From: JBMFOH01 sp049969715 [NCBI: bacterium]
GTDB taxonomy: Bacteria > DUMJ01
Assembly (NCBI GenBank): GCA_049969715.1
Contig: JBMFOH010000043.1
Coordinates: forward strand, 1-10,138
Direction of reading: 5' to 3'
Length of the DNA: 10,138 nucleotides
In this document: one piece after another, positions 1 through 10,092 of the stretch
Layout: every line of letters begins with the position of its first letter
How positions within the stretch are numbered: the stretch's first letter is position 1
Translations under genes and position numbers: made by a program
Notes under the pieces: model-generated
Database searches by the model: none
Seen by the model: only the letters and a program-made list of their open reading frames with translations
What the model was told of the DNA's origin: nothing

Positions 1-1236
1 TCTCTGCCTTATGGGAAAGGTTTCCTTCAGGTTAATATACCAGAAGATGTGTATTATATAATTACTAAGAAGAATACTATTCCTCCAATAAATCTAAAAA
101 GTGAATTTCAGAAAAACCTCTATGGAAAGCTTAATTCTTTTAGAGATAAAAAAGTAGGGATAGCTATACCAGATATCACTAGGTATAACATAAGCTCTAA
201 GGTCTTACCCTTTTTGGTAGATGAACTTAAAGAGATTAGGGTAAGAAAGATAAGTATTATAATAGGTTCTGGCTTACATAGGCCTGCTTCCCAAGAGGAT
301 ATTAAATATCTTATTCCTCCATTATCTATGGATGTTGAAGTAATACCCCATAATGCTATCGATGATTCAGTATTAGTATATCTAGGAGAAACATCAAGGA
401 AGACTCCTATATTTATAAACAGGCATTTTATTGAGTCTGAGAAACGGATAGTTTTAGGGACGATCGAACCTCATCAGTTTGCGGGCTTTACTGGGGGGAA
501 TAAAGGAGTTGTCATAGGCTTAGGAGGGTATAAAACTATAAAGATTAATCATTCCCTTTTAAAGGAGCAAAATGCTAGACTCGGAGTCCTTGAAGGAAAC
601 CCTGTAAGAGAAGATATAGATGAGGCAGGAGAAATTATAGGGATAGATCTAATGATAAATTGTGTCTTAAATGAAAAAAAGGAAATAATAGGAGTATTTG
701 TTGGAGATATTAAGGAAGAGTATAGAAAAGGGGTAGAGCTAGTTAAGCAGATATCAATGATAGAAAGCCCTGAAGTAGATATAGTTATCGCATCTCCGGG
801 GGGATTTCCAAAAGATATAGATATGTATCAGGCACAAAAAGCCTTAGCACATAGTGAGCTTATAGTAAGAGACGGAGGCATTATTATCCTTGTAGCTGAA
901 TGTCGTGAAGGTATAGGGAATGAGCTTTTTTATCAAACAATGAATTCTACTAAAACCCCTAGCGAAGTGATTAAGAATTTTATAAGAGAAGGTTTTGAGA
1001 TAGGACCTCATAAGGCTTTTCTTTTATCTAGAACATTAGAAAGAGTAAAGGTATTTATGGTTTCTAGTTTACCCAAAGAAACGGTGAAAAATCTTTTTAT
1101 GGTGCCATTCGATAGTGTAGATGAGGCTCTAAAGAAAGCCTTAAAAGAACTTGGTAGAGGTTCTAGAATTGCTGTGTTACCTAATGCTTCTTCTATAATT
1201 CCAATAAAGGAGGGTAACAGTGCGAAGAGAAATTAA
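1..1236 (+). CDS. larA: LarA-family nickel-pincer 2-hydroxyacid racemase/epimerase (5' partial)
   Basis: The frame is open from base 1, and the residues before the GTG at 49 (LPYGK, then IPED) match the usual LarA N-terminus. The true start therefore lies just outside the window, and probably only a few residues are missing of a family length near 420. LarA enzymes racemise or epimerise the C2 hydroxyl of 2-hydroxyacids in the cytoplasm, using a nickel pincer nucleotide made by LarB, LarC and LarE. Visible active-site residues are DITR (Asp codon 172-174), the His of GLHRP (277-279), the His of EPH (472-474), the cofactor-linking Lys of GGNK (502-504) and the nickel-ligand His of NHS (550-552). 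The last three are spaced 10 and 16 residues apart, exactly as His174, Lys184 and His200 in Lactobacillus LarA. No larBCE is seen here. The family is clear but the substrate is not. Context suggests sulfolactate rather than lactate (inference); other sugar or hydroxy acids are possible. Confidence 0.9.
   Translation, partial: SLPYGKGFLQVNIPEDVYYIITKKNTIPPINLKSEFQKNLYGKLNSFRDKKVGIAIPDITRYNISSKVLPFLVDELKEIRVRKISIIIGSGLHRPASQEDIKYLIPPLSMDVEVIPHNAIDDSVLVYLGETSRKTPIFINRHFIESEKRIVLGTIEPHQFAGFTGGNKGVVIGLGGYKTIKINHSLLKEQNARLGVLEGNPVREDIDEAGEIIGIDLMINCVLNEKKEIIGVFVGDIKEEYRKGVELVKQISMIESPEVDIVIASPGGFPKDIDMYQAQKALAHSELIVRDGGIIILVAECREGIGNELFYQTMNSTKTPSEVIKNFIREGFEIGPHKAFLLSRTLERVKVFMVSSLPKETVKNLFMVPFDSVDEALKKALKELGRGSRIAVLPNASSIIPIKEGNSAKRN
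1206..1213 (+). promoter_or_regulatory. Shine-Dalgarno fixing the GTG start of the aldehyde dehydrogenase
   Basis: AAAGGAGG lies six bases before the GTG at 1220, inside the end of the LarA-like gene. It supports a GTG start that overlaps the upstream stop by 17 bases, so the two genes are likely translationally coupled. Confidence 0.8.
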
Positions 1237-2620
1237 TGTGTATAACCCTTATGACGGTAGTATAGTAGGAGTAGTAGAAGAATCTACTATAGAAGATGTA
1301 GAAAGAGCGATAGAAAGAGCTGAAAAGGCTAAAGAGTTAATGGCAGATACGCCATTGTATAGAAGGGCTGAAATTTTACGTCGTACTGCCGAACTTATTC
1401 AGCAGAGAAGTGAAGACTTTGCTATGACTTTAGTAAAAGAGGTAGGGAAAACTATAAGAGAAGCAAGGACAGAGGTAAAAAGAGCTGTAGAGATATTTAA
1501 TTTAGCTAGTGAAGAAGCAAAGAGACTTCATGGGGAAACTCTTCCTTTTGATTCTGTAGCTGGTTCTGAGAATAGAAGAGGTTTCTTTGTAAGAGTTCCG
1601 GTAGGAATTATAGGGGCTATAACGCCATTTAATGTTCCATTAGTACTTGCTTCTCATAAGATAGCTCCTGCTATAGCAGGAGGAAACACAGTAGTATTTA
1701 AACCGGCTACTGTTACACCTTTAGTAGGTAAAAAATTAACAGAAACTATATTAGAAACTGGTTTGCCAGAAGATGCCTTGCAGATAGTAATTGGACCAGG
1801 TGATACAGTTGGAAATACTATAGTAAGAGACCCTAGGATTAGGATGATAAGTTTTACAGGTAGCAGGTCTGTTGGATTAGAAATTACAAAGAGTGCAGGG
1901 TTAAAAAAGATCGCCCTTGAGCTTGGCTCTAACTCTGCATTAATAATCTCAGATAAGGGAGATGTATCATCTGCTGCTCAGGCTACTGTAAGAGGAGGAT
2001 TTGCAGTAGCAGGTCAGGTGTGTATCTCTATTCAGAGAGTCTTTGTGGATAGAAAGGTGCTGGATGAATATCTAGATATGCTTATCTCTCTTGTGCAAAG
2101 TCTAAAGGTCGGGGATCCAATGAAAGAAGAGACAGATATGGGCCCTATGATCAATGAACAGGCGGCAGAACGAGTAGAAAGGTGGATAAGAGAAGCGGTA
2201 GATATGGGGGGCAGGATTCTTACCGGTGGAGAAAGAAGTAAGGCTTTACTTCAACCTACAGTTCTTATAGATGTTCCTCTTGAAGCTAAGATTATATCAG
2301 AAGAAGTATTTGGCCCAGTTGTCACAGTAATTCCAGTTAATAATTTACTAGAAGCTATAAAGTTAACCAATGATTCTAAATATGGCTTACAAGCGGGAAT
2401 ATTTACCAATGATATTGAAGAAGCTTTCTTAGCTATTAAGCACCTCGATGTGGGAGGAGTAATAATAAACGATGGACCATCTTATCGAGCAGACTTTATG
2501 CCATACGGGGGAGTAAAGGAAAGTGGTTTAGGAAGAGAAGGTATTAGATATGCTTTGGAAGAAATGACAGAGATAAAGACTGTTTGTTTTAACTTAAAGA
2601 GAGGAGGTTTTAATCTATGA
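1220..2620 (+). CDS. NAD(P)-dependent aldehyde dehydrogenase, candidate sulfolactaldehyde dehydrogenase
   Basis: A complete 466-aa member of the aldehyde dehydrogenase superfamily, which oxidises an aldehyde to an acid through a cysteine thioester in the cytoplasm. Visible hallmarks are TPFN with the oxyanion Asn138, the cofactor-binding Lys161 in FKPA, FTGS at 212-215, the general base Glu234 in LELG, the catalytic Cys268 in GQVCIS and EVFGPV at 362-367. All key residues are present. The GQVCISIQR setting resembles the lactaldehyde and non-phosphorylating glyceraldehyde dehydrogenase branch. It sits between a 2-hydroxyacid racemase homologue and a transaldolase, and its stop overlaps the transaldolase start as ATGA. 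That context fits oxidation of a three-carbon 2-hydroxyaldehyde. With SuyAB-like genes downstream, the best guess is (S)-sulfolactaldehyde to (S)-sulfolactate (inference). Lactaldehyde, glyceraldehyde or a sugar-acid semialdehyde are alternatives. Confidence 0.92.
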
Positions 2621-3261
2621 AGTTTTTCTTAGATACAGCAAATGTAGATGAGATAAGGGAGGCTTATAGTTGGGGAGTAATTGATGGGGTAACTACTAAT
2701 CCTACACTTGTTTCTAAAGAAAATAGAAAATTCTATGAACTCCTAGAAGAGATCTGTTCCATAGTAAATGGTCCTGTGAGTGCAGAGGTAGTAAGTACGG
2801 ATACAGAAGGAATGGTAAAAGAAGCAGAAGACTTGATGAGAATTGCCCCTAATATTGTAGTAAAAATTCCTCTTATAAAAGAGGGGATAAAGGCAGTAAA
2901 AATCCTTAAAGAGAAAGGCATTAAGACAAATGTCACTCTTGTCTTTTCTCCAGGTCAAGCTCTATTAGCAGGTAAGGTTGGAGCAACATACGTAAGTCCA
3001 TTTGTAGGTAGACTAGACAATATAAGTGAAGAAGGTTTAGATTTAGTGCGCAAAATTAAACAGATCTATTCAAATTATGGGTTCAATACTGAAATTATAG
3101 TAGCTGCTATACGTAATCCTATGCATATAATAAATGCAGCCTTGGTAGGAGCAGACATAGCTACCATGAGATTTGAAATTCTAGAAATGCTTTTCCAGCA
3201 TCCTATGACCGATTTAGGATTGGAACAGTTCCTAAAAGACTGGGAAAAAGTTCCTAAATAA
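2617..3261 (+). CDS. Small transaldolase-family protein (TalC/FSA type), candidate sulfofructose transaldolase
   Basis: A complete 214-aa class I aldolase-fold protein of the TalC/fructose-6-phosphate aldolase group. The Schiff-base Lys83 sits in VVKIP, with LDTAN near the N-terminus, GVTTNP at 24-29 and SPFVGR at 127-132. Two positions separate aldolases from transaldolases: E. coli FSA has Gln59 and Tyr131, while true transaldolases have Glu and Phe. Here they are Glu57 and Phe129, so dihydroxyacetone transfer is favoured over free aldol cleavage. Two regions are unusual. The phosphate-site Ser of FSA (Ser166) aligns with Ala164, and the usual TVP(F/Y)K segment reads TMRFE (183-187). These changes fit an acceptor or donor without a normal phosphate, such as 6-deoxy-6-sulfofructose (inference). 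The start ATG has GAGGAGG nine bases upstream and overlaps the preceding stop. Confidence 0.88.
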
Positions 3262-3274
3262 AGGGGAGATTACA

Positions 3275-3799
3275 ATGACATCTTCTGTGAGGAGAAGAAA
3301 AGCTATAGAAGGGTATCTATTTGCATCCCCATGGATTATTGGATTTCTTTTATTTACCGCTGGACCAATGATAGCTTCTTTATTCCTTAGTTTTTGTAAG
3401 TATGATATACTTACTACTCTCAAATGGATAGGGATAGAAAATTATAGACAATTATTTAATGCTCAACTCTTTTGGACAGCTCTATATAATACAGTCTATT
3501 GGGTAGTTTTTGGAGTTCCATTTAGATTGGCTATGGCTCTTCTACTTGCCCTTTTAATGAATAGAAAACTTAGAGGAACTCCATTATTTAGGACAATATT
3601 TTATGTCCCCTCAGTTGTTTCTGGGGTAGCTCTTGCAATGTTATGGGTATGGCTTTTCGATCCTTCTGTAGGCTTAATAAATACATCCCTTAGGATTTTA
3701 GGGGTAGCTAATCCTCCCCTCTGGCTTGGTTCAGAACAATGGTCTAAGCCTGCTCTTATACTAATGAGTTTATGGGGGGTAGGAGGCGAATTAAAGTGA
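3275..3799 (+). CDS. MalF-type sugar ABC transporter permease, C-terminally truncated (probable pseudogene)
   Basis: The N-terminal half of a carbohydrate ABC importer permease of the MalF/UgpA kind. Membrane segments are visible at about residues 14-40, 68-94 and 105-128, and a fourth begins at 158. The family is normally close to 300 aa with six segments and a cytoplasmic EAA loop that contacts the ATPase. This one stops at 174 aa, immediately after the conserved LMSLWGVGG, with only ELK before the TGA. The EAA loop is therefore absent. The rest is not found in another frame, because the following bases encode the binding protein's signal peptide. No MalG-type partner lies in the window. 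The stop overlaps the next gene's GTG. The start is well supported by GGGGAG a few bases upstream. It is unlikely to work as a permease as it stands. Confidence 0.85.
   Translation: MTSSVRRRKAIEGYLFASPWIIGFLLFTAGPMIASLFLSFCKYDILTTLKWIGIENYRQLFNAQLFWTALYNTVYWVVFGVPFRLAMALLLALLMNRKLRGTPLFRTIFYVPSVVSGVALAMLWVWLFDPSVGLINTSLRILGVANPPLWLGSEQWSKPALILMSLWGVGGELK
3781..3786 (+). promoter_or_regulatory. Shine-Dalgarno for the binding protein, also the permease truncation point
   Basis: AGGAGG lies nine bases before the GTG at 3796 and decides that start over the upstream ATG at 3772, which has no ribosome site. The same bases are the Gly-Gly codons where the permease homology ends. Confidence 0.75.
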
Positions 3800-5046
3800 G
3801 GAAGTTTTGGATAGTATTTATAAGTATACTTCTTTGTGTAGGGATAATTGGTTCGGTATACGGAGAGATAAGACTAGAGGTATGGAATAGTGACCATAAT
3901 CCAGATGCACAGAAATGGTATAAAGAGGTATTTGTCCCAGCATTTGAGAAGAGTCATCCTGGGGTAAAGGTGGAGATGGTATTTACTCCATGGGGACCAC
4001 AGTACACAGAAAAGATACTTACAAGTTACGCAGCGGGGAAGGGCCCAGATATCCTTATGGGAGGTGCAGAGTTTATAGATGACTTTGTACTAAAGAATAT
4101 TGTGATAGATATAACAGATAGGGTAAAAGCGTGGCCAGACTATAAAAATTTTGACCCTGCTACTACCGGCAATCAGATATATAATGGAAGGATATATGGA
4201 ATTGTCTTGACGTCTGATAGTCGTCACTTCCTCTATAGAAAGGACCTTTTTAAAGAGGTAGGATTAGATCCTAATAAACCACCGTCTACATGGGAACAGT
4301 TTAGAACTGCTGCATTAAAGCTCACTAAAAAGGAAGGTAATACTCTTGTTAGGATGGGATGCTCTATAGATATGTACTATCAAACACTCAATAATATAGT
4401 CTATCAGAATGGTGGAGAGATGATTAGTCCTGATAAAAGTAATGCTCTCTTCAATAGTCCAGAGGCAGTTGAAGCTTTAGAGTTCTGGGGGAAATTATTT
4501 AATGAGATTGCTCCTCCCGGAACAGTGCTTACCGCTCCTATGCCTCTATTTGCTGCTGGAAAGATTGCTATGGCTCAGTGGTCAGGAACACCTACTATAG
4601 CAGATGTACGTATATATGCCCCTCAGCTTCTTGATCAGGTTGGGATAGCTCCTCCACTAAAGAGAAAGAAGCAAATAGTCTTATGTTATAATAACTGGTT
4701 AGGAATTGGGAGCCAGAGCAAGAATCCTGATATGGCTTGGGAGTTCTTGAAGTTCCATTTAAGACCAACATATATAGCACAATATGCTCATACATTGTAC
4801 AGATTACCTGGACTAAAAACCGCATTGAATCTTCCTATATTGGCTCAGGATCCATTCATTAGAGCCTTAGCAAGACAAAGAGCACAGTATGGTATGGCTA
4901 CATGGACAGCACCAGAATTTAGAAATATAAGAAATGTAATTGATCCTGAGCTTGATAACTTTTTAAGAGGGAAGAAGACTGCTAAACAGGCTTTAGACGA
5001 TGCAGTAGCTAATGTAAATAAGATATTGGCACAGTATAAGAAGTAA
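3796..5046 (+). CDS. Extracellular sugar-binding protein of an ABC importer (family 1)
   Basis: I start this at GTG 3796, giving 416 aa. A Shine-Dalgarno lies nine bases upstream and the protein then opens with a clean Sec signal: MRK, a hydrophobic core to about residue 19, and probable cleavage after VYG (residue 23). There is no proper lipobox, so it is probably a soluble periplasmic protein, which argues for a cell with an outer membrane. The mature part has the usual features of MalE-like solute-binding proteins: the LEVWNSDHN opening strand, AGKGPDIL near 80-87, a TWEQF segment, FAAGKIAM and a C-terminal helical lobe. It would capture a sugar or glycoside for the importer whose permease is broken just upstream. 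In this operon a sulfoquinovoside such as sulfoquinovosyl glycerol is a reasonable ligand (inference). The specificity cannot be read from sequence by eye. Confidence 0.9.
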   Translation: MRKFWIVFISILLCVGIIGSVYGEIRLEVWNSDHNPDAQKWYKEVFVPAFEKSHPGVKVEMVFTPWGPQYTEKILTSYAAGKGPDILMGGAEFIDDFVLKNIVIDITDRVKAWPDYKNFDPATTGNQIYNGRIYGIVLTSDSRHFLYRKDLFKEVGLDPNKPPSTWEQFRTAALKLTKKEGNTLVRMGCSIDMYYQTLNNIVYQNGGEMISPDKSNALFNSPEAVEALEFWGKLFNEIAPPGTVLTAPMPLFAAGKIAMAQWSGTPTIADVRIYAPQLLDQVGIAPPLKRKKQIVLCYNNWLGIGSQSKNPDMAWEFLKFHLRPTYIAQYAHTLYRLPGLKTALNLPILAQDPFIRALARQRAQYGMATWTAPEFRNIRNVIDPELDNFLRGKKTAKQALDDAVANVNKILAQYKK

Positions 5047-5057
5047 CTAAGAATGAT

Positions 5058-5082
5058 GCTCCCGGAGACAGTCTCCGGGAGC
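5058..5082 (+). terminator. Perfect GC-rich hairpin after the binding-protein gene (attenuator or mRNA stabiliser)
   Basis: Bases 5058-5069 and 5071-5082 are perfect 12-base reverse complements around a single A; sterically this folds as a stem of about 11 pairs with a three-base loop. It is strikingly GC-rich against its surroundings. No run of T follows (GAATTACC), so it is not a classical intrinsic terminator. It lies in the longest gene gap of the window, after the binding protein. A stem in that place commonly protects the 3' end of a processed binding-protein message and lowers read-through. Confidence 0.75.
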
Positions 5083-5110
5083 GAATTACCTACAATAGGA
5101 GGAAAATACT

Positions 5111-5899
5111 ATGAGTAATTTCAGGATTGGATGTCAGGTATTGACATGGGGTGGAGATAGAATCGTAAATAGTCTTGAGACGGTGCTATCTCAGGCAAGA
5201 GAGGCTGGATATGAAGGGGTAGAAATAGGAACACGATTTCTAATTAATGTATCTCCTTTAAGACTTAAATCTACGCTTAAAGAAAGGGGTCTAGTCCTTT
5301 CTGGACTTCATACTGGTTTGGGAGACCTAGATAGATTATCGGAGGAAGAAGCTATCACAAATCTAGTAAGGGCTTTAGAATTTGCAAAAGAAGTAGAGAC
5401 CAAATATCTTGTAGTTAGTGGGTGGAGGAAGGAGGGAAAAACAAAAGAGGACTTTTTAAAACAGGCAAGAGTCTTGAGAGAAGTTGGAAATAAAGCTAAA
5501 TCTTATGGAATGTGTATCGCCTATCATAATCATGATTGGGAGATAAAAGATAACTATGGGGAGTTGAAGGAACTTCTAAACCTACTAAATCCAGAGATAT
5601 TCTCCTTAGCACCAGATATTGGATGGGTAATAAAGGCAGGTGGAGAACCTTCTGAATTTTTGGAGACCTTTCTTCCTAGAATAAGCTATCTACATCTAAG
5701 AGACTTAAAGAATAACGATTTTGTAGAGTTTGGTAAAGGGACTGTGGATTATCACAGATTTTTTAATACTCTCAGAGAAAAAGGTTGGTCAGGTTGGGTG
5801 GTTCTAGAGATAGTAGGTTCTCAAGATAGTCCTTTTTCTGACCCATTTAAAGTTGCAAAAGAGGGTAGAGAGTATCTTAAGAGTATATTAAATACATAA
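5111..5899 (+). CDS. Xylose-isomerase-like TIM-barrel sugar isomerase/epimerase or dehydratase (IolE-like group)
   Basis: A complete 262-aa single-domain TIM barrel of the AP-endonuclease-2/xylose isomerase-like family. These are cytoplasmic, divalent-metal enzymes acting on sugars and keto-sugars: isomerases, 3-epimerases, inosose dehydratase and keto-glycoside eliminases. The N-terminal IGCQVLTWG resembles the IolE/hydroxypyruvate-isomerase opening. Likely metal and acid/base residues are HNHDWE at 139-144, Asp169 in APDIGW, His195 in YLHLRD and Glu233 in VLEI. AGGAGG lies eight bases before the ATG. The next gene is a Gfo/Idh/MocA oxidoreductase 17 bases downstream. Such pairs are common in inositol pathways and in routes that oxidise a glycoside at C3 and then eliminate the aglycone. 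Here it could isomerise or help open a sulfoquinovoside, but the exact reaction is unknown. Confidence 0.85.
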   Translation: MSNFRIGCQVLTWGGDRIVNSLETVLSQAREAGYEGVEIGTRFLINVSPLRLKSTLKERGLVLSGLHTGLGDLDRLSEEEAITNLVRALEFAKEVETKYLVVSGWRKEGKTKEDFLKQARVLREVGNKAKSYGMCIAYHNHDWEIKDNYGELKELLNLLNPEIFSLAPDIGWVIKAGGEPSEFLETFLPRISYLHLRDLKNNDFVEFGKGTVDYHRFFNTLREKGWSGWVVLEIVGSQDSPFSDPFKVAKEGREYLKSILNT

Positions 5900-5916
5900 C
5901 CTTGGAGGTGTCATAA

Positions 5917-6999
5917 ATGGCAAAACGGTATGGAGTAGCAGTTATAGGAGCAGGAGATAGGGGAAGGGTGTATAGTAATGTTTGGAAGAACGTAGATGGG
6001 ATAGAATTAGTCTCTATATGTGATATTATCGAAGAACGGGCAGAGAATGTCTATCATCAGTTTAGTTATAAAGCTAGGTACTCAGATTATAAATCCGCTA
6101 TAGATAGGGATGATGTAGATATAGTAACTATATGTACGCCGGCGTATTTTCATTCTGAAATTGGTATCTTTGCTATGGAACGTGGAAAACATGTTTTATG
6201 CGAAAAGCCTATGGACCTATCTTTAGAAAAAGCAGAAAAAATGATAAAAACATCGGAAGAGACAGAGAGGGTATTAGCCTTTGGATTTCAGTACCATAAT
6301 ATAGCTGGCTTTCGTAAGATAAAAAAGGCTATTGATAAGGATATAATAGGTCGTCCAGTAATAATAAAGTTTGCCGACATTCGTCAGATAAGGCCAAAAC
6401 TTGCCATGCATGATGCTATGTATGGAAATGGAGGGCCAATTGTTGATATGTGTTCCCATTATTTTGACCTTATGCGTTGGTACTTTAACTCTGAACCAGT
6501 AAGGGTGATGGCTAGTGGTTTTATCTTTTCAAAGGGCAGGAATGAGTTGTCTACTATACAGTATAAAGCTTTAGATACCGCCAGTATAATTATAGAATTC
6601 TCTTCAGGAGATATAGGAATGATAACAGTAACTTGGGGGTTACCTCCAAAAGTAGATGGAAAGCCAGAGGCAGGTATGATAGGTCCTCTAGGATTATTAG
6701 AAACAGACAACCCCTTTGGTAACAATGAGGTAATATGTAAACTTGAGGGAGGAGTAACAAAAGAGATACAGCTATCCCAGGAGGACCTAGAAGAATGTGT
6801 TTGGCCTGAGAAAACTCTTGTAAAGAGATTCTTATCTGCAATAGACGGTAAAGGGGTTCCCCAGAGAGGGAGAAAGGATGGATATATAGCCCTAGCTTCC
6901 TCTTTAGCAACTATAAAGTCTATTATCCAAAAAAGACCTGTTACGTTAGAAGAGATCTATAGAGAAAAACCAAGTGTAATGGACTGCATGAAAGGTTGA
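5917..6999 (+). CDS. Gfo/Idh/MocA-family NAD(P)-dependent oxidoreductase
   Basis: A complete 360-aa two-domain protein. The N-terminal Rossmann fold carries GAGDRG at 11-16 and an acidic strand end (CDI, near 35-37). The family motif CEKP contains Lys97, and the C-terminal domain carries the motif GGPIVDMCSHYFD at 172-184 with Asp177 and His181 as likely catalytic residues. Members oxidise or reduce sugar hydroxyls in the cytoplasm. Some hold NAD tightly and use it to hydrolyse glycosides through a transient 3-keto sugar; the NAD-dependent sulfoquinovosidases (SqgA, GH188) and GH109 are of this fold. No GH31 sulfoquinovosidase is visible in the window, so this gene is the natural candidate for releasing sulfoquinovose from its glycoside (inference). 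A plain sugar dehydrogenase is equally possible. GGAGG stands eight bases before the ATG. Confidence 0.9.
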   Translation: MAKRYGVAVIGAGDRGRVYSNVWKNVDGIELVSICDIIEERAENVYHQFSYKARYSDYKSAIDRDDVDIVTICTPAYFHSEIGIFAMERGKHVLCEKPMDLSLEKAEKMIKTSEETERVLAFGFQYHNIAGFRKIKKAIDKDIIGRPVIIKFADIRQIRPKLAMHDAMYGNGGPIVDMCSHYFDLMRWYFNSEPVRVMASGFIFSKGRNELSTIQYKALDTASIIIEFSSGDIGMITVTWGLPPKVDGKPEAGMIGPLGLLETDNPFGNNEVICKLEGGVTKEIQLSQEDLEECVWPEKTLVKRFLSAIDGKGVPQRGRKDGYIALASSLATIKSIIQKRPVTLEEIYREKPSVMDCMKG

Positions 7000-7014
7000 A
7001 GAAGGAGGTATATT

Positions 7015-7761
7015 ATGCCTAAAGAAGGGAAATTATTTAGTGTAGATGATGTAAAGGTAGAATTTAGAGACATCCTAAATCAGAGTAATTCTAACCTTTC
7101 ATTTTTAAGCCTAACCTTCTGTATTGTAAAGCCTACAGGAGTTTCTTCATATGTATCATATAAAGATGAAGAGGCTCTTCTTTCCTGTTTAGAAGGTGAA
7201 GGTATCGTAGAAATAGGTAATAATAGTTACACCCTTAAAAGATACGATATACTTTATATCCCAAGAGATACCAAGTTTATACTAAAGAATGAAAAGGATG
7301 TTGATTTTAAGCTATATATAGCTAGAGCGCCAAGTGACTTAGATGTTCCTGCAGTGTATAAATCTTTCGAAGAGGTAATAAAAGATCCGTCTAGGCATAG
7401 ACCCCTCAAGAGAAAGAATGTCTATCTTATGTTAGGGGAAGAAGAAAAAGCTAGTCTTCTCACAGGGGGATATACCTTCTTTGAGACGTATTCTAGATCC
7501 TGGCCAATTCACAAGCACGAAGATCAGGAAGAGGTATACATATTTCTAAAGGGACATGGAGCTATGGAGGTTTTTGATTTGGAAGAAGAAAAAACTTTCG
7601 TAAAGTCAGTAGGACCAGGCGATATAGTTACCATACCTATAGGGAATTACCATCCTGCATTTAGCCATGAAGAACCATTAGAGTTCTTGTGGATTATTGC
7701 AGGTGCTAGATATTGGGTTGGAGATAAGGATAGATCGTTTATGGAGGGTGCAAAAAGATGA
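7015..7761 (+). CDS. Two-domain cupin protein, candidate sugar isomerase
   Basis: A complete 248-aa protein that reads as two cupin barrels. The C-terminal barrel has the metal-site pattern: His166 and His168 in HKHED, Glu172 or Glu173, and His213 in GNYHPAF after the GDIVTIP turn. The N-terminal barrel (about 45-105) keeps the cupin shape, with GEG near 61-63 and the YDILYIPRDT turn at 77-86. It has Lys-Asp-Glu-Glu where the His pair should be, so it probably does not bind metal. Cupins include metal-dependent sugar isomerases such as archaeal phosphoglucose isomerase and KduI-type enzymes, as well as sensors and oxygenases. Its stop overlaps the SuyA-like start as ATGA, tying it to the desulfonation genes. 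A role as sulfoquinovose-to-sulfofructose isomerase is an inference from context. GGAGG lies six bases before the ATG. Confidence 0.8.
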   Translation: MPKEGKLFSVDDVKVEFRDILNQSNSNLSFLSLTFCIVKPTGVSSYVSYKDEEALLSCLEGEGIVEIGNNSYTLKRYDILYIPRDTKFILKNEKDVDFKLYIARAPSDLDVPAVYKSFEEVIKDPSRHRPLKRKNVYLMLGEEEKASLLTGGYTFFETYSRSWPIHKHEDQEEVYIFLKGHGAMEVFDLEEEKTFVKSVGPGDIVTIPIGNYHPAFSHEEPLEFLWIIAGARYWVGDKDRSFMEGAKR

Positions 7762-8042
7762 GTCATAAATTTCTCATTCATAATCAAAATGATAATGTAG
7801 GAGTAGCAGTAAAAGATATAACCAAAGGCGAAATGGTCACAGGGGTAGTGATAGAAGATAGAAGTAAAACCGTAGAGATAGAGGCTATAGACGATATACC
7901 TATAGGGCATAAAATTGCCCTCAGCTCCATTAAAAGTGGTGAGTTAGTGATAAAGTATGGAGTTCCAATAGGGGTAGCTACTAGAGATATTTCTATCGGT
8001 GAACATGTTCATACTCATAATCTAAAGAGTAGGAGATGGTAA
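7758..8042 (+). CDS. suyA: SAF-domain small subunit, SuyA-like (2R)-sulfolactate sulfo-lyase subunit alpha
   Basis: A complete 94-aa SAF-domain protein, the small-subunit form of the UxaA superfamily. The opening MSHKFLIH, the following DNVGVAV (12-18), DIPIGHKIAL (46-55), the GVATRDI strand (72-78) and the His-rich end GEHVHTHN at 81-88 closing in RRW are as I remember them for SuyA, the alpha subunit of the iron-dependent lyase that splits (R)-3-sulfolactate into pyruvate and sulfite. The same domain is the N-terminus of altronate and galactarate dehydratases, so the small subunit alone does not settle the substrate; the large subunit next door is more telling. Its ATG overlaps the cupin stop and GGAGG lies ten bases upstream. 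Two bases separate its stop from the large-subunit start, as expected for equimolar subunits. Confidence 0.78.
   Translation: MSHKFLIHNQNDNVGVAVKDITKGEMVTGVVIEDRSKTVEIEAIDDIPIGHKIALSSIKSGELVIKYGVPIGVATRDISIGEHVHTHNLKSRRW
8031..8035 (+). promoter_or_regulatory. Shine-Dalgarno fixing the large-subunit start at 8045
   Basis: AGGAG directly abuts the ATG at 8036, too close to serve it, but is nine bases from the ATG at 8045. The later start also gives the usual family opening (MERVTFLGYRR), so I place the gene start at 8045, not 8036. Confidence 0.7.
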
Positions 8043-8044
8043 AG

Positions 8045-9202
8045 ATGGAGAGAGTAACATTCCTAGGCTATAGAAGGGAAAATGGTAAGGTTGGGGTAAG
8101 GAACTATGTGGCTATTATCCCTGTAGACGATATTTCTAATACTGCCTGTGAAGGAGTAGGTAAGCTTATTAATGGAACTATTGTGTTATCCCACCCGTAT
8201 GGACGTCTCCAATTTGGTAGAGACCTAGAGTTATTTTTTAAGACTATGATAGGTGCTGGATGTAATCCTAACATTGCATCAGCTATCGTCATTGGTATAG
8301 AACCAAAATGGGCGGAGAAGATAGCAGAAGGCATAGCCAAAACTGGTAAGCCTGTAGAAGCCTTTGCTATAGAAAGATATGGAGATTTAAAAACAATCGA
8401 ACGTGCAAGTAGAGTAGCAAAGGATTTTGTACAAAAGGCTTCAGAGCTAAAAAGAGAACCGATTAACATATCTGAACTTGTAATGAGTATAAAATGTGGA
8501 GAATCAGACACTACCTCAGGTTTAGGGGCTAATCCTACTGTAGGAAAGGTGGTAGAGAGACTTATATCTCTAGGGGGAACGGTTATGTTTGGAGAAACCA
8601 CTGAGTTAACTGGAGGAGAAGATATAGTTGCAAATAGAATGAAGACTCCAGAACTTAGAGAGAAATTCCTAAAAGTATTTAACGAATACCAAGACCTTAT
8701 AAAACGCGAAGGTGTTAGTTTATTAGGCTCTCAACCTACAGAGGGTAATATTGCTGGTGGATTAACTACTATTGAGGAAAAGGCTATGGGGAATATACAG
8801 AAAATAGGAAAAGCAATGGTAGATGGTGTATTAGCACCGGCTGAAGAACCTCCAGGAAATGGACTTTACTTTATGAATACATCTTCTGCTGCTGCAGAGG
8901 CAGTAACGCTCTTTGCTGCAGGAGGTTCTGTAGTGCATCTTTTCCCTACTGGGCAGGGGAACACCATAGGTAATCCTATAATTCCAGTTATTAAGATTAG
9001 TGCTAATCCAGTTACTGTAGCTACAATGAGCGAACATATAGATGTAGATGTAAGTAAAATCCTAACATTAGAAGAGACACTAGAAGAATCTGCGAATAAG
9101 CTTTGGAACGTATTGATAATGACTATTTCTGGAAGATTAACCTCTGCCGAGGTGTTAGGACATAAAGAATTTGTCTTAACAAAATTATTCCCAAGCGCAT
9201 AA
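8045..9202 (+). CDS. suyB: UxaA-superfamily large subunit, SuyB-like (2R)-sulfolactate sulfo-lyase subunit beta
   Basis: A complete 385-aa large subunit of the altronate/galactarate dehydratase superfamily. Features are GYRRENGKVGVRN at 8-20, HPYGRLQFGRD at 50-60, IGIEPKW at 83-89, KCGESDTTSGLGANPT at 150-165, GSQPTEGNIAGGLTTIEEK between 228 and 246, SSAAAEAV at 280-287, HLFPTGQGN at 298-306 and the end TKLFPSA. Altronate dehydratases have a Cys in the HxxGC segment and in the GLGCE segment; here those read HPYGRLQ and GIEPKW. This is the pattern I recall for SuyB. The enzyme removes sulfite from (R)-sulfolactate to give pyruvate, in the cytoplasm, probably with iron. The pairing with a separate SAF subunit also fits. 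A dehydratase for another sugar acid is the main alternative. I made the assignment from memory of the family, not from a search. Confidence 0.8.
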   Translation: MERVTFLGYRRENGKVGVRNYVAIIPVDDISNTACEGVGKLINGTIVLSHPYGRLQFGRDLELFFKTMIGAGCNPNIASAIVIGIEPKWAEKIAEGIAKTGKPVEAFAIERYGDLKTIERASRVAKDFVQKASELKREPINISELVMSIKCGESDTTSGLGANPTVGKVVERLISLGGTVMFGETTELTGGEDIVANRMKTPELREKFLKVFNEYQDLIKREGVSLLGSQPTEGNIAGGLTTIEEKAMGNIQKIGKAMVDGVLAPAEEPPGNGLYFMNTSSAAAEAVTLFAAGGSVVHLFPTGQGNTIGNPIIPVIKISANPVTVATMSEHIDVDVSKILTLEETLEESANKLWNVLIMTISGRLTSAEVLGHKEFVLTKLFPSA

Positions 9203-9219
9203 GAGGCAGGTGATAACGA

Positions 9220-10092
9220 ATGAAATTGGCTTTTTTAAATAGTTGTCTGAGAGAATTAGACCTAGAGGACACTTTTAAGTGGGCAAAAGAAAATGGATTT
9301 CAATGCTTAGAGCTTACAGGTGCCCCTTGGTATAAATATGTAGATATAGAAGAGCTAGCTAGAGGTAATGTAAATTGGCTTATCTCTTTAGAAGAAAGAT
9401 ATGGGATAAATATAGTAGCTATTATGTATGGTGGAAGGAATCTTGATCCCGATTTGAACATCAGAGAAGAGAGCCTCAACAGACTTAAGGCTATAATAAG
9501 ATCCGCTAAAAACCTGAATATACCGGTAGTCAGCACATTTATTGGACGGGACTATACCAAACCTGTAGAAGAGAACTTGAAGCTAGTAAAAGAAGTATGG
9601 CCACCAATAATAGAATTCGCCGAAAGATATAACATAAAGATAGCTATAGAAAACTGTCCTATGATGGGGGTCTGGCCATCTGGATTAAATATTGCTTTCT
9701 CTCCAGAAATATGGAAGGAAATCTTTGATATTCTACCATCTAAGATTCTAGGACTAAACTTCGATCCTTCTCATCTAGTATGGCAAGGGATAGACTACAT
9801 AAAGGCGATAAAAGATTTTGGAGATAGGATATACCATGTACATGCAAAGGATACGGAGATACTTAAAGACAAATTAAGTTCAGCTGGAATATACGGAGAA
9901 AACTGGTGGAGATATAGAATTCCAGGTAGAGGCCTTGTAGATTGGGGGAAGCTTATAGATACCCTATTACAAGTAGGATATGATGGGGTTATAAGTATTG
10001 AGCATGAAGATCCTGTGTGGGAAGGAACAGAAGAAAAGGTAAAAAGAGGTCTTCTTTTAGGTAAGAGGCATCTAGAGCAATTTTTAGACTGA
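9220..10092 (+). CDS. TIM-barrel sugar isomerase/epimerase (xylose-isomerase-like)
   Basis: A complete 290-aa AP-endonuclease-2/xylose isomerase-like barrel, only distantly like the one at 5111. The expected metal tetrad is visible: Glu144 in IAIENCP, Asp182 in FDPSH, His208 in YHVHAKD and Glu261 in ISIEHED. His185 and the RIPGRG loop (233-238) before a DWGKLID helix are further substrate-side features typical of this group. It is a metal-dependent cytoplasmic enzyme for a sugar, keto-sugar or related polyol, and the substrate cannot be named from sequence. It follows the SuyB-like gene by 17 bases, and AGGTGAT, complementary to the 16S rRNA end, lies five bases before the ATG. It could share the isomerisation or glycoside-opening steps of the operon with the first barrel and the cupin (inference). 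Confidence 0.87.
   Translation: MKLAFLNSCLRELDLEDTFKWAKENGFQCLELTGAPWYKYVDIEELARGNVNWLISLEERYGINIVAIMYGGRNLDPDLNIREESLNRLKAIIRSAKNLNIPVVSTFIGRDYTKPVEENLKLVKEVWPPIIEFAERYNIKIAIENCPMMGVWPSGLNIAFSPEIWKEIFDILPSKILGLNFDPSHLVWQGIDYIKAIKDFGDRIYHVHAKDTEILKDKLSSAGIYGENWWRYRIPGRGLVDWGKLIDTLLQVGYDGVISIEHEDPVWEGTEEKVKRGLLLGKRHLEQFLD

Follow-up and report, generated by a model that had tools for sequence, protein, structure and literature searches.

A predicted nickel-pincer-nucleotide sulfolactate racemase of the LarA family associated with (R)-sulfolactate sulfo-lyase in a putative sulfosugar operon

Introduction

Sulfoquinovose (SQ) and its product sulfolactate are major organic sulfur stocks. We analysed a stretch of 10,138 nucleotides (hereafter the window; contig JBMFOH010000043.1 of assembly GCA_049969715.1, from the bacterium JBMFOH01 sp049969715) that carries genes for SuyA and SuyB, the predicted subunits of (R)-sulfolactate sulfo-lyase, and a gene of the LarA family of nickel-pincer-nucleotide (NPN) racemases. 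An initial annotation, made from the sequence alone, had placed sugar-binding, Gfo/Idh/MocA and isomerase-fold proteins, a transaldolase (TAL), an aldehyde dehydrogenase (ALDH), a 2-hydroxyacid racemase homologue and SuyAB-like subunits in one operon. We found all of them, tightly packed on the forward strand within positions 1-10092. The racemase homologue had been named without a role, and we rank this gene, LarA, as the most informative one of the locus.

The window holds eleven genes (Table 1), and the spacing between the mechanically called open reading frames (ORFs) ranges from -28 to +64 bases, with an overall G+C content of 38%. The double cupin and the ABC permease were missing from the earlier gene list. 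Because the 5' end of larA is cut by the start of the window and only 46 bases remain beyond the last gene, the operon may extend past either end.

Table 1. Genes of the window, with the basis of each assignment.
Product	Position	Strand	Basis
LarA homologue, LarAH5 family, 5' end outside the window; predicted NPN-dependent sulfolactate racemase	1..1236	+	Lar_N/LarA_C; NCBIfam NF052595
Aldehyde dehydrogenase (ALDH), predicted sulfolactaldehyde dehydrogenase	1220..2620	+	Aldedh, 530 bits
Short TalC/MipB-type transaldolase (TAL), predicted to cleave 6-deoxy-6-sulfofructose	2617..3261	+	TAL_FSA; TIGR00875, 331 bits (cut-off 246)
Truncated ABC sugar permease, 174 of about 300 aa	3275..3799	+	Alignment to homologue
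Extracellular sugar-binding protein	3796..5046	+	SBP_bac_1, 5.6e-37
IolE-like TIM-barrel sugar isomerase/epimerase-like protein	5111..5899	+	AP_endonuc_2; myo_inos_iolE, 109 bits (below cut-off 290)
Gfo/Idh/MocA oxidoreductase, possibly acting on a glycoside or in sugar oxidation	5917..6999	+	GFO_IDH_MocA
Double cupin, KduI/IolB family, possible SQ isomerase (weakly supported)	7015..7761	+	KduI, 2.5e-9; KduI/Cupin_2
SuyA, small subunit of predicted (R)-sulfolactate sulfo-lyase	7758..8042	+	SAF domain, 2.1e-10
SuyB, large subunit of predicted (R)-sulfolactate sulfo-lyase	8036..9202	+	GD_AH_second + GD_AH_C; tree
IolO/IolE-like TIM-barrel sugar isomerase/epimerase-like protein	9220..10092	+	AP_endonuc_2, 8.1e-38

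Identity and neighbourhoods of SuyAB

We collected the best 80 of at least 583 relatives of the window SuyB (61-78% identity) with their genome loci (L numbers), and placed the large subunits in a 98-row tree built by a quick method with SH-aLRT support. The window SuyB lies inside the SuyB clade, which a split with an SH-aLRT of 100 separates from altronate dehydratases, a galactarate dehydratase and a haloarchaeal homologue. The same clade includes the SuyB of a canonical-looking cluster of Paracoccus aestuarii, where a plasmid carries a GntR regulator, two UxaA-family genes, a TTT transporter, a hydroxyacid dehydrogenase, an Ldh-family gene and a putative sulfate exporter, a row that resembles the published Paracoccus sulfolactate genes (PMC9594981, PMC12421959). 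On this evidence we firmly identify the large subunit as SuyB. Clustering with altronate or galactarate dehydratases did not occur, which led us to reject that identity and supports the earlier call of SuyAB-like subunits.

A SuyA-type SAF homologue is encoded in 78 of the 80 loci, and in the window a separate SAF small subunit directly adjoins the large one. Neighbours were named by clustering and Pfam searches of cluster representatives only, a procedure that left most of them unnamed; the recurrent ones are Ldh_2 genes (ComC type), D-2-hydroxyacid dehydrogenases (SlcC type), FCD-GntR regulators, TTT transporters and PF03601 exporters. ComC-type genes occur in 43 loci and SlcC-type genes in 37 (tblastn, 1e-25). 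Fumarase-type genes (PF05681) are found in 13 loci (L004, L011, L019, L021, L025, L029, L049, L052, L065, L070, L071, L072 and L078). Over 18-21 kb, three SuyAB loci of Moorella and Thermanaeromonas (L002, L005, L007) gave no match at 1e-25 to LarA, SlcC or ComC. Genes of the M24 peptidase family accompany SuyAB in two phyla (L055, 13641-14753; L036, 1-831).

Association between LarA and SuyAB

The window LarA scores 475 bits against the LarAH5 model (cut-off 462), and its best solved relative is the malate racemase Mar2 (6d6z). In the alignment it keeps the NPN-binding and catalytic residues D72, R75, H108, H174, K184, H200 and K298 (LarA numbering; roles from PMC7583248). LarA is present in 14 of the 80 SuyAB loci, and eight of the ten of these proteins that were scanned exceed the LarAH5 cut-off (L001 and L006 fall below it). 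SlcC occurs in none of the 14 LarA-bearing loci, against 37 of the 66 others (Fisher exact test, p = 5.6e-5), and ComC in 2 of 14 against 41 of 66 (p = 0.002); since many of the 80 loci are short contigs, some of the absences are artefacts. On the SuyB tree the LarA state changes 10 times, and supported branches force at least seven of these changes. In the LarA tree the window protein groups with that of L032 (98/90), and the two join, with incomplete support (87/71), eleven SuyAB-linked LarAs, most of which come from the Desulfosporosinus class. A single larA gene stands between two SuyAB copies in L140.

We extended the analysis to 770 whole genomes (G numbers), namely 82 of the Desulfosporosinus class, 387 Verrucomicrobiota and 301 Chloroflexota, and counted weaker LarA homologues down to an E value of 1e-80 (1e-90 in Chloroflexota). 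Among the LarAH5 proteins over the cut-off, 14 of 25 adjoin SuyB and one more is separated from it by contig ends, whereas none of the 223 weaker homologues does so. In the Desulfosporosinus class, 10 of 11 have a SuyB (at least 73% identity) within about 2 kb. The eleventh (G052) is encoded 213 bases from a contig end, and the same genome has its SuyB on another contig, 121 bases from the start. SuyB at this identity is found in 12 genomes of the class; in the twelfth (G044) it is present as two fragments at contig starts, and no LarAH5 exceeds the cut-off. None of the 80 below-cut-off homologues of the class lies within 30 kb of such a SuyB on the same contig. In Verrucomicrobiota both LarAH5 proteins adjoin SuyB (SuyB in 3 genomes; weaker homologues 0 of 84), and in Chloroflexota 2 of 12 do so (SuyB in 16 genomes; weaker homologues 0 of 59). 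The idea that the LarAH5 family as a whole tracks SuyAB thus failed in Chloroflexota. The operons of the Desulfosporosinus class are short, mostly GntR-SuyA-SuyB-LarA, followed in several cases by TctC and TctA; because they hold little else, sulfolactate is the obvious candidate substrate of LarA in this class. The LarAs of G021-G023 are 88-94% identical to each other.

Other Chloroflexota LarAH5 genes have different neighbours. Three of them (L126, L127, L129) stand beside ComA (PF02679, phosphosulfolactate synthase); their ComAs are 93-96% identical and therefore count as one event. These three loci also carry a gene of the M20 peptidase family, and they possibly encode a sulfolactate-making pathway. 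The LarAH5 of L131 belongs to the ComA-linked clade and lies near a contig start. On a short contig (L130, 2258-6606), a PF03601-like exporter, a pyridoxal phosphate-dependent enzyme (PF00291), LarAH5 and a TAL of the type acting on 6-deoxy-6-sulfofructose (SF-TAL) occur together, and SuyB was not found in that genome at 1e-110. For five further Chloroflexota LarAH5 no sulfonate neighbour was recognised, with only some of their neighbours named.

A glutamine in the substrate-facing loop

The two residues after the catalytic histidine of Mar2 and LarA are believed to point towards the side chain of the substrate, and LarA group 5 is reported to carry Gln or His at the position of the Phe of group 6 (PMC7583248). 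Because the family-wide association failed in Chloroflexota, we divided LarAH5 by this residue. The Gln/His split is post hoc and draws partly on the same data; Verrucomicrobiota (G458) provide the one new SuyAB-linked case. Gln comes first after the catalytic His in all 25 distinct SuyAB-linked LarAs read (24 in the tree set, plus that of G458, L153), a count in which L152, a second copy of L014, does not recur and to which the split LarA of G017 does not contribute. The same loop is found in the window LarA, in the three ComA-linked LarAs, and in L130, L131 and L133. It is common to distant lineages (the L001 type, L006 and L050). None of the 47 below-cut-off LarAs read (of 223) has Gln; they have HY (6), HL (12), HH (1) or HF (28). 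When loop and neighbourhood are tabulated, Gln occurs with a sulfonate neighbour in 30 cases and without one in two, while other residues occur with one in no case and without one in 51. For the below-cut-off proteins this label covers SuyB genome-wide, and ComA, SuyB and TAL within about 4 kb. Also conserved in the window LarA are the Lys of helix 14 and, ahead of the catalytic Lys, the Gln of the Mar type.

Cofactor synthesis and fate of sulfite

LarC is encoded in 9 of the 11 genomes with a SuyAB-linked LarA, and in one of the three genomes whose SuyAB locus lacks LarA. The initial annotation had sulfite released for respiration. This is not borne out close to the window: in the three SuyB-bearing genomes of the nearest phylum (described below), as in G004 and G006, no sulfite reductase (NIR_SIR) match exceeded the cut-off, and the Desulfosporosinus genome G005 has eight. 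Sulfite respiration fits the Desulfosporosinus type and not the nearest relatives of the window, which more likely export sulfite.

Aldehyde dehydrogenase, transaldolase and relatives of the operon

The closest SuyB (L001, 78% identity) comes from a metagenome-assembled genome, and its phylum, the nearest to the window in this respect, has SuyB in three of seven genomes (76-78%). All three carry an ALDH-TAL-LarA-SBP-permease-permease-GH31 cluster (SBP, sugar-binding protein) divergent from GntR-SuyA-SuyB, with LarA split into two ORFs in G017. The window ALDH and TAL are 69-71% and 75-77% identical to those of these clusters. A 439-aa protein follows GH31 in G016 and G017, and the contig of L001 stops 285 bases past GH31. 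The two 439-aa proteins score 29.2 and 21.8 bits against the fucose isomerase C-terminal domain (Pfam cut-off 29.3), and their counterpart in the Chloroflexi locus L058 scores 35.0 bits; the SQ isomerase SqvD is assigned to this Pfam family in PMC9594981. We rejected the GH31 of L001 as a YihQ-type sulfoquinovosidase, the nearest solved relatives being alpha-glucosidases and YicI (limit 1e-50).

Two Verrucomicrobiota share the gene set. In L185 the order is cupin, a 303-aa protein without a Pfam match, SuyA, SuyB, ComC, LarA, TAL, ALDH and ROK, with identities to the window of 58% for TAL, 34% for ALDH and 48% over 222 aa for the cupin. In L014, ALDH-TAL is divergent from SuyAB-LarA-cupin, and the cupin (33%) is partial at a contig end. 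ALDH, TAL, LarA and SuyAB thus recur together in three genomes of the nearest phylum and two Verrucomicrobiota. This part of the complete sulfosugar pathway first proposed for the operon stands. Its entry steps do not appear in the window, where we found no GH31 sulfoquinovosidase, no SQ isomerase of the SqvD/FucI type and no SqvB among the eleven genes, although they could lie beyond the open window ends.

The double cupin is a weak candidate for the missing isomerase. We take it as the likeliest one of the operon because the L185 run contains no other isomerase that we recognised, and by analogy with cupin phosphoglucose isomerases. Its matches to these are weak (E of 0.003 and above), and its best match is KduI. 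We found no cupin in the seven genomes of the nearest phylum, in a search that had no positive control.

The window TAL had been read as a sulfo-TAL enzyme, which its sequence does not bear out: it scores 303 bits against the classical TAL 1vpx and 176 bits against BmSF-TAL, while the TAL of the Chloroflexi locus L055 has the opposite pattern (255 bits to BmSF-TAL, 156 to 1vpx). Aligned proteins of the SF-TAL group (L008, L035, L041, L051, L055, L058, L130) have R-H after TTNP and W in FIGW or FVGW. Those of the window group (window, L001, L014, L090, L093) have T-H, S-H or T-L after TTNP, and R replaces W; the window TAL itself has T-L, and R in FVGR. An Arg in the motif ATMRF is found in all five TALs of the window group, at a site where the solved 1vpx and 3s0c have Pro. 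We tried this substitution as a sulfonate marker and rejected it, as L185 has Gly. The window ALDH falls below the cut-off for the lactaldehyde dehydrogenase and SafD models. It has F-N-V and His(+8) as in Bacillus megaterium SlaB and, placed by the offset from the catalytic Cys, an Ala where RlGabD has Arg and SlaB Asn; taken together, these sulfonate-binding residues are not decisive.

Gfo/Idh/MocA protein, TIM barrels and other features

The Gfo/Idh/MocA protein has 3ezy and DgpA as its nearest solved relatives. It is 37-38% identical to the Gfo proteins of the SuyAB loci L039 and L036, and 30-35% identical, over partial stretches only, to proteins of L062 and L040 that we took as GH188 on the basis of PMC10755693. 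Comparison with SqgA (GH188), suggested by the initial annotation, gave a divided answer: of the sulfonate pair Arg166/Lys172 the Arg aligns and the Lys does not, and with only partial overlap with L040 and L062, identity with SqgA is not established. The TIM barrel at the end of the window is 51-52% identical to two genes of Paenibacillus piri, one of them about 7 kb from SuyAB. There, a pair of Gfo and TIM-barrel (TIMb) genes lies about 7 kb from SuyAB in L036, and a second copy stands without SuyAB in 19.9 kb (L182); the two belong to paralogous Gfo-TIM-barrel-ABC modules (L036, 850-8084; L182, 6633-11236). In L039 a Gfo and a TIM-barrel gene follow LarA. Possible roles for the Gfo protein and both TIM barrels are the opening of a glycoside, in the manner of SqgA, or the processing of another sulfosugar.

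Residues 8-173 of the 174-residue window permease align with 18-182 of a 303-aa homologue. Its ORF runs in frame into the ribosome-binding site of the binding-protein gene, which starts with GTG at 3796 after AGGAGG at 3781-3786 (mechanical ORF start, 3772), and no second permease gene was found among the window ORFs between the two. The truncation and the missing permease reflect either a real deletion or an assembly join. A GC-rich hairpin of 11 bp lies 3' of the binding-protein gene (5058-5082; -22.7 kcal/mol for the folded stretch) and occupies the only long gap of the operon. A search of the window against Rfam gave no match over threshold, and promoter-like and terminator-like sites did not exceed the level of shuffled sequences.

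Proposed pathway and alternatives

We consider it reasonably probable that the operon breaks a sulfonated hexose, most likely SQ, fully down to central metabolites and sulfite in one cell, with LarA as the racemase. SQ would be isomerised to 6-deoxy-6-sulfofructose, perhaps by the double cupin. From this ketose TAL would release (S)-sulfolactaldehyde and, by passing the dihydroxyacetone half on to glyceraldehyde 3-phosphate, form fructose 6-phosphate, a cleavage for which the company of the gene is the only argument and which its sequence does not show. ALDH would oxidise the aldehyde to (S)-sulfolactate. LarA, with its NPN cofactor, would then invert this to (R)-sulfolactate, as its genomic association and conserved residues suggest, and SuyAB, a family member by its tree position, is predicted to cleave (R)-sulfolactate to pyruvate and sulfite. 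In one cofactor-bound step, LarA would do the work of two NAD(P)-linked dehydrogenases, SlcC and ComC.

Several results weigh against this interpretation. The sulfolactate racemase activity of LarA is itself a prediction from sequence and context. Between LarA and SlcC, seven supported phylogenetic pairs are available and one or two differ, which is not significant. Ten of the 12 Chloroflexota LarAH5 over the cut-off have no SuyB nearby, and five of the 15 SuyB-linked cases of the whole-genome test (G003, G005, G006, G008, G058) belong to the loci from which the association was first suspected, leaving ten new ones. Four Chloroflexota LarAH5 without a recognised sulfonate neighbour have the His loop, and L133 has Gln and no such neighbour. 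Because the Gln label changes only three times on the tree, with two supported comparable pairs, its Fisher value of 1e-20 overstates the case. We found no LarC in G006 or G008, and in G011 and G012 it is split or interrupted by a stop. The window TAL lies outside the SF-transaldolase clade, and since it lacks the SF-TAL residues and its counterparts are the sole TAL found in each of the three genomes of the nearest phylum, the window-type TAL may be a housekeeping enzyme. The window has neither an SQ isomerase of a known type nor a sulfoquinovosidase, the fucose isomerase matches of the nearest phylum lie below the Pfam cut-off, and the solved structures nearest to the GH31 of L001 are those of YicI-type enzymes.

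These observations leave room for other substrates and other divisions of labour. The operon could degrade a sulfosugar other than SQ, or a sulfonated cyclitol, which the Gfo protein and the two TIM barrels would oxidise and rearrange before TAL, with LarA and SuyAB in unchanged roles. Four genes resemble IolE, IolG, IolB and IolO (every score below cut-off), the FucI-type isomerase and GH31 of the relatives are missing from the window, and Gfo and TIM-barrel genes accompany SuyAB in L036 and LarA in L039. Yet TAL requires a 2-ketose, which SQ yields by a single isomerisation, L185 combines cupin, SuyAB, LarA, TAL and ALDH with no Gfo or TIM-barrel match in 19.9 kb, and the Gfo-TIMb-TIMa-permease paralogue of L182, with no SuyAB in 19.9 kb, suggests that the module may be general; we judge this substrate rather unlikely, if worth keeping in mind. 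We think it unlikely that the operon joins two functions, sulfolactate use by LarA, SuyAB and perhaps ALDH, and ordinary sugar catabolism by TAL, the ABC transporter, the TIM barrels and Gfo, with no sulfosugar cleaved. The classical type of TAL would agree with this, as would the SuyAB-LarA operons of the Desulfosporosinus class, in which no sugar genes were recognised. Against it, three genomes have ALDH-TAL-LarA next to SuyAB in divergent orientation, accompanied by GH31 and, in two cases, by a weakly FucI-like gene, and L185 has SuyAB-ComC-LarA-TAL-ALDH in a single run.

It is quite improbable, in our view, that LarA is the malate (or tartrate) racemase that its family name implies and that its position beside SuyAB serves another dicarboxylate. 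The family takes its name from enzymes that racemise malate, Mar2 has the same Lys in helix 14 and Gln in helix 11, fumarase-type genes occur in 13 of the 80 SuyAB loci, and a malate enzyme could hide among the many unnamed neighbours. Yet none of the fumarase-type genes is in a LarA-bearing locus, LarA is repeatedly linked with SuyAB and ComA, and the authors who described Mar1 suggest in PMC7583248 that its native substrate may be another than malate, and saw no linkage by gene context. That the SuyAB-like pair is an altronate or hexonate dehydratase, in an operon handling plain sugar acids, we regard as extremely improbable: the Pfam domains are shared, and the sole noteworthy solved relative of SuyB is a galactarate dehydratase, but SuyB forms a separate clade, with the outgroup split fully supported, and its relatives adjoin genes of the SlcC, ComC and sulfate exporter types.

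Discussion

The interpretation that we favour, and to which we give fair though incomplete confidence, is that the branch of LarA with the Gln loop, including the 'malate racemase' of Desulfitobacterium, is an NPN-dependent sulfolactate racemase. It would have joined SuyAB several times, replacing SlcC/ComC in sulfosugar operons and in the sulfolactate operons of sulfite reducers, and it also stands beside phosphosulfolactate synthase. In the window it would complete an SQ pathway with a classical-type TAL and a cupin-type isomerase.

The union of sulfo-TAL and SuyAB is known in principle and not new, because PMC9594981 and PMC12421959 report combinations of sulfosugar cleavage with SuyAB. The statement of the initial annotation that known sulfo-TAL pathways end at sulfolactate export is contradicted by the sulfo-TAL clusters of Thermotogae and Chloroflexi, which carry SuyAB and may use all SQ carbon (PMC9594981, 2022). 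Like the window, this extended pathway unites a transaldolase route and SuyAB, with full use of SQ carbon predicted, and the Chloroflexi loci L055, L058 and L035 look like it. The window differs in its classical TAL, in the absence of SqvD and SqvB, and in the presence of LarA, the cupin, Gfo and two TIM barrels; in PMC9594981 the word 'racemase' occurs in the reference list only. Paracoccus wurundjeri, with a tandem pathway for sulfofucose (PMC12421959, 2025), likewise has sulfosugar cleavage and SuyAB in one organism with sulfolactate racemisation between them, though its cleavage is of the Entner-Doudoroff type and SlcC and ComC take the place of the window LarA. In that report 'lara' is found as an author name only.

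(S)-sulfolactate needs racemisation before the (R)-specific SuyAB can act (PMC12421959, PMC9594981). The gap that we predict LarA to fill is closed in Chromohalobacter salexigens by SlcC/ComC, as cited in both reports. These are two NAD(P)-linked enzymes, and among the 80 loci SlcC shares none with LarA and ComC shares two. The predicted nickel-dependent sulfolactate racemase in place of SlcC/ComC is the new point of our analysis. By the LarAH5 cut-off, the window LarA shares its family with Mar1 of Desulfitobacterium hafniense, which was assayed on malate and other acids and not on sulfolactate (PMC7583248, PMC11770544; the main texts of both have zero matches to 'sulfo'). Its authors noted a low affinity for malate, suggested another substrate and saw no apparent context link (PMC7583248). 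The same species is listed as using sulfolactate as an electron acceptor (PMC12890257).

We found no LarA-type sulfolactate racemase among the open PMC papers that our searches listed. The sulfo-TAL pathway was reportedly first described in 2020 by Liu et al. and Frommeyer et al., and the report of Liu et al. may mention a racemase gene.

The solutions to the (S)-to-(R) conversion of sulfolactate in the literature covered here use pairs of dehydrogenases, and the LarA route would be that of a single enzyme. If our prediction is true, these thermophiles, sulfite reducers and Verrucomicrobiota would solve this stereochemical problem with one nickel enzyme. Nickel would be tied to sulfonate cycling, and the malate racemase Mar1 would gain a likely natural substrate.

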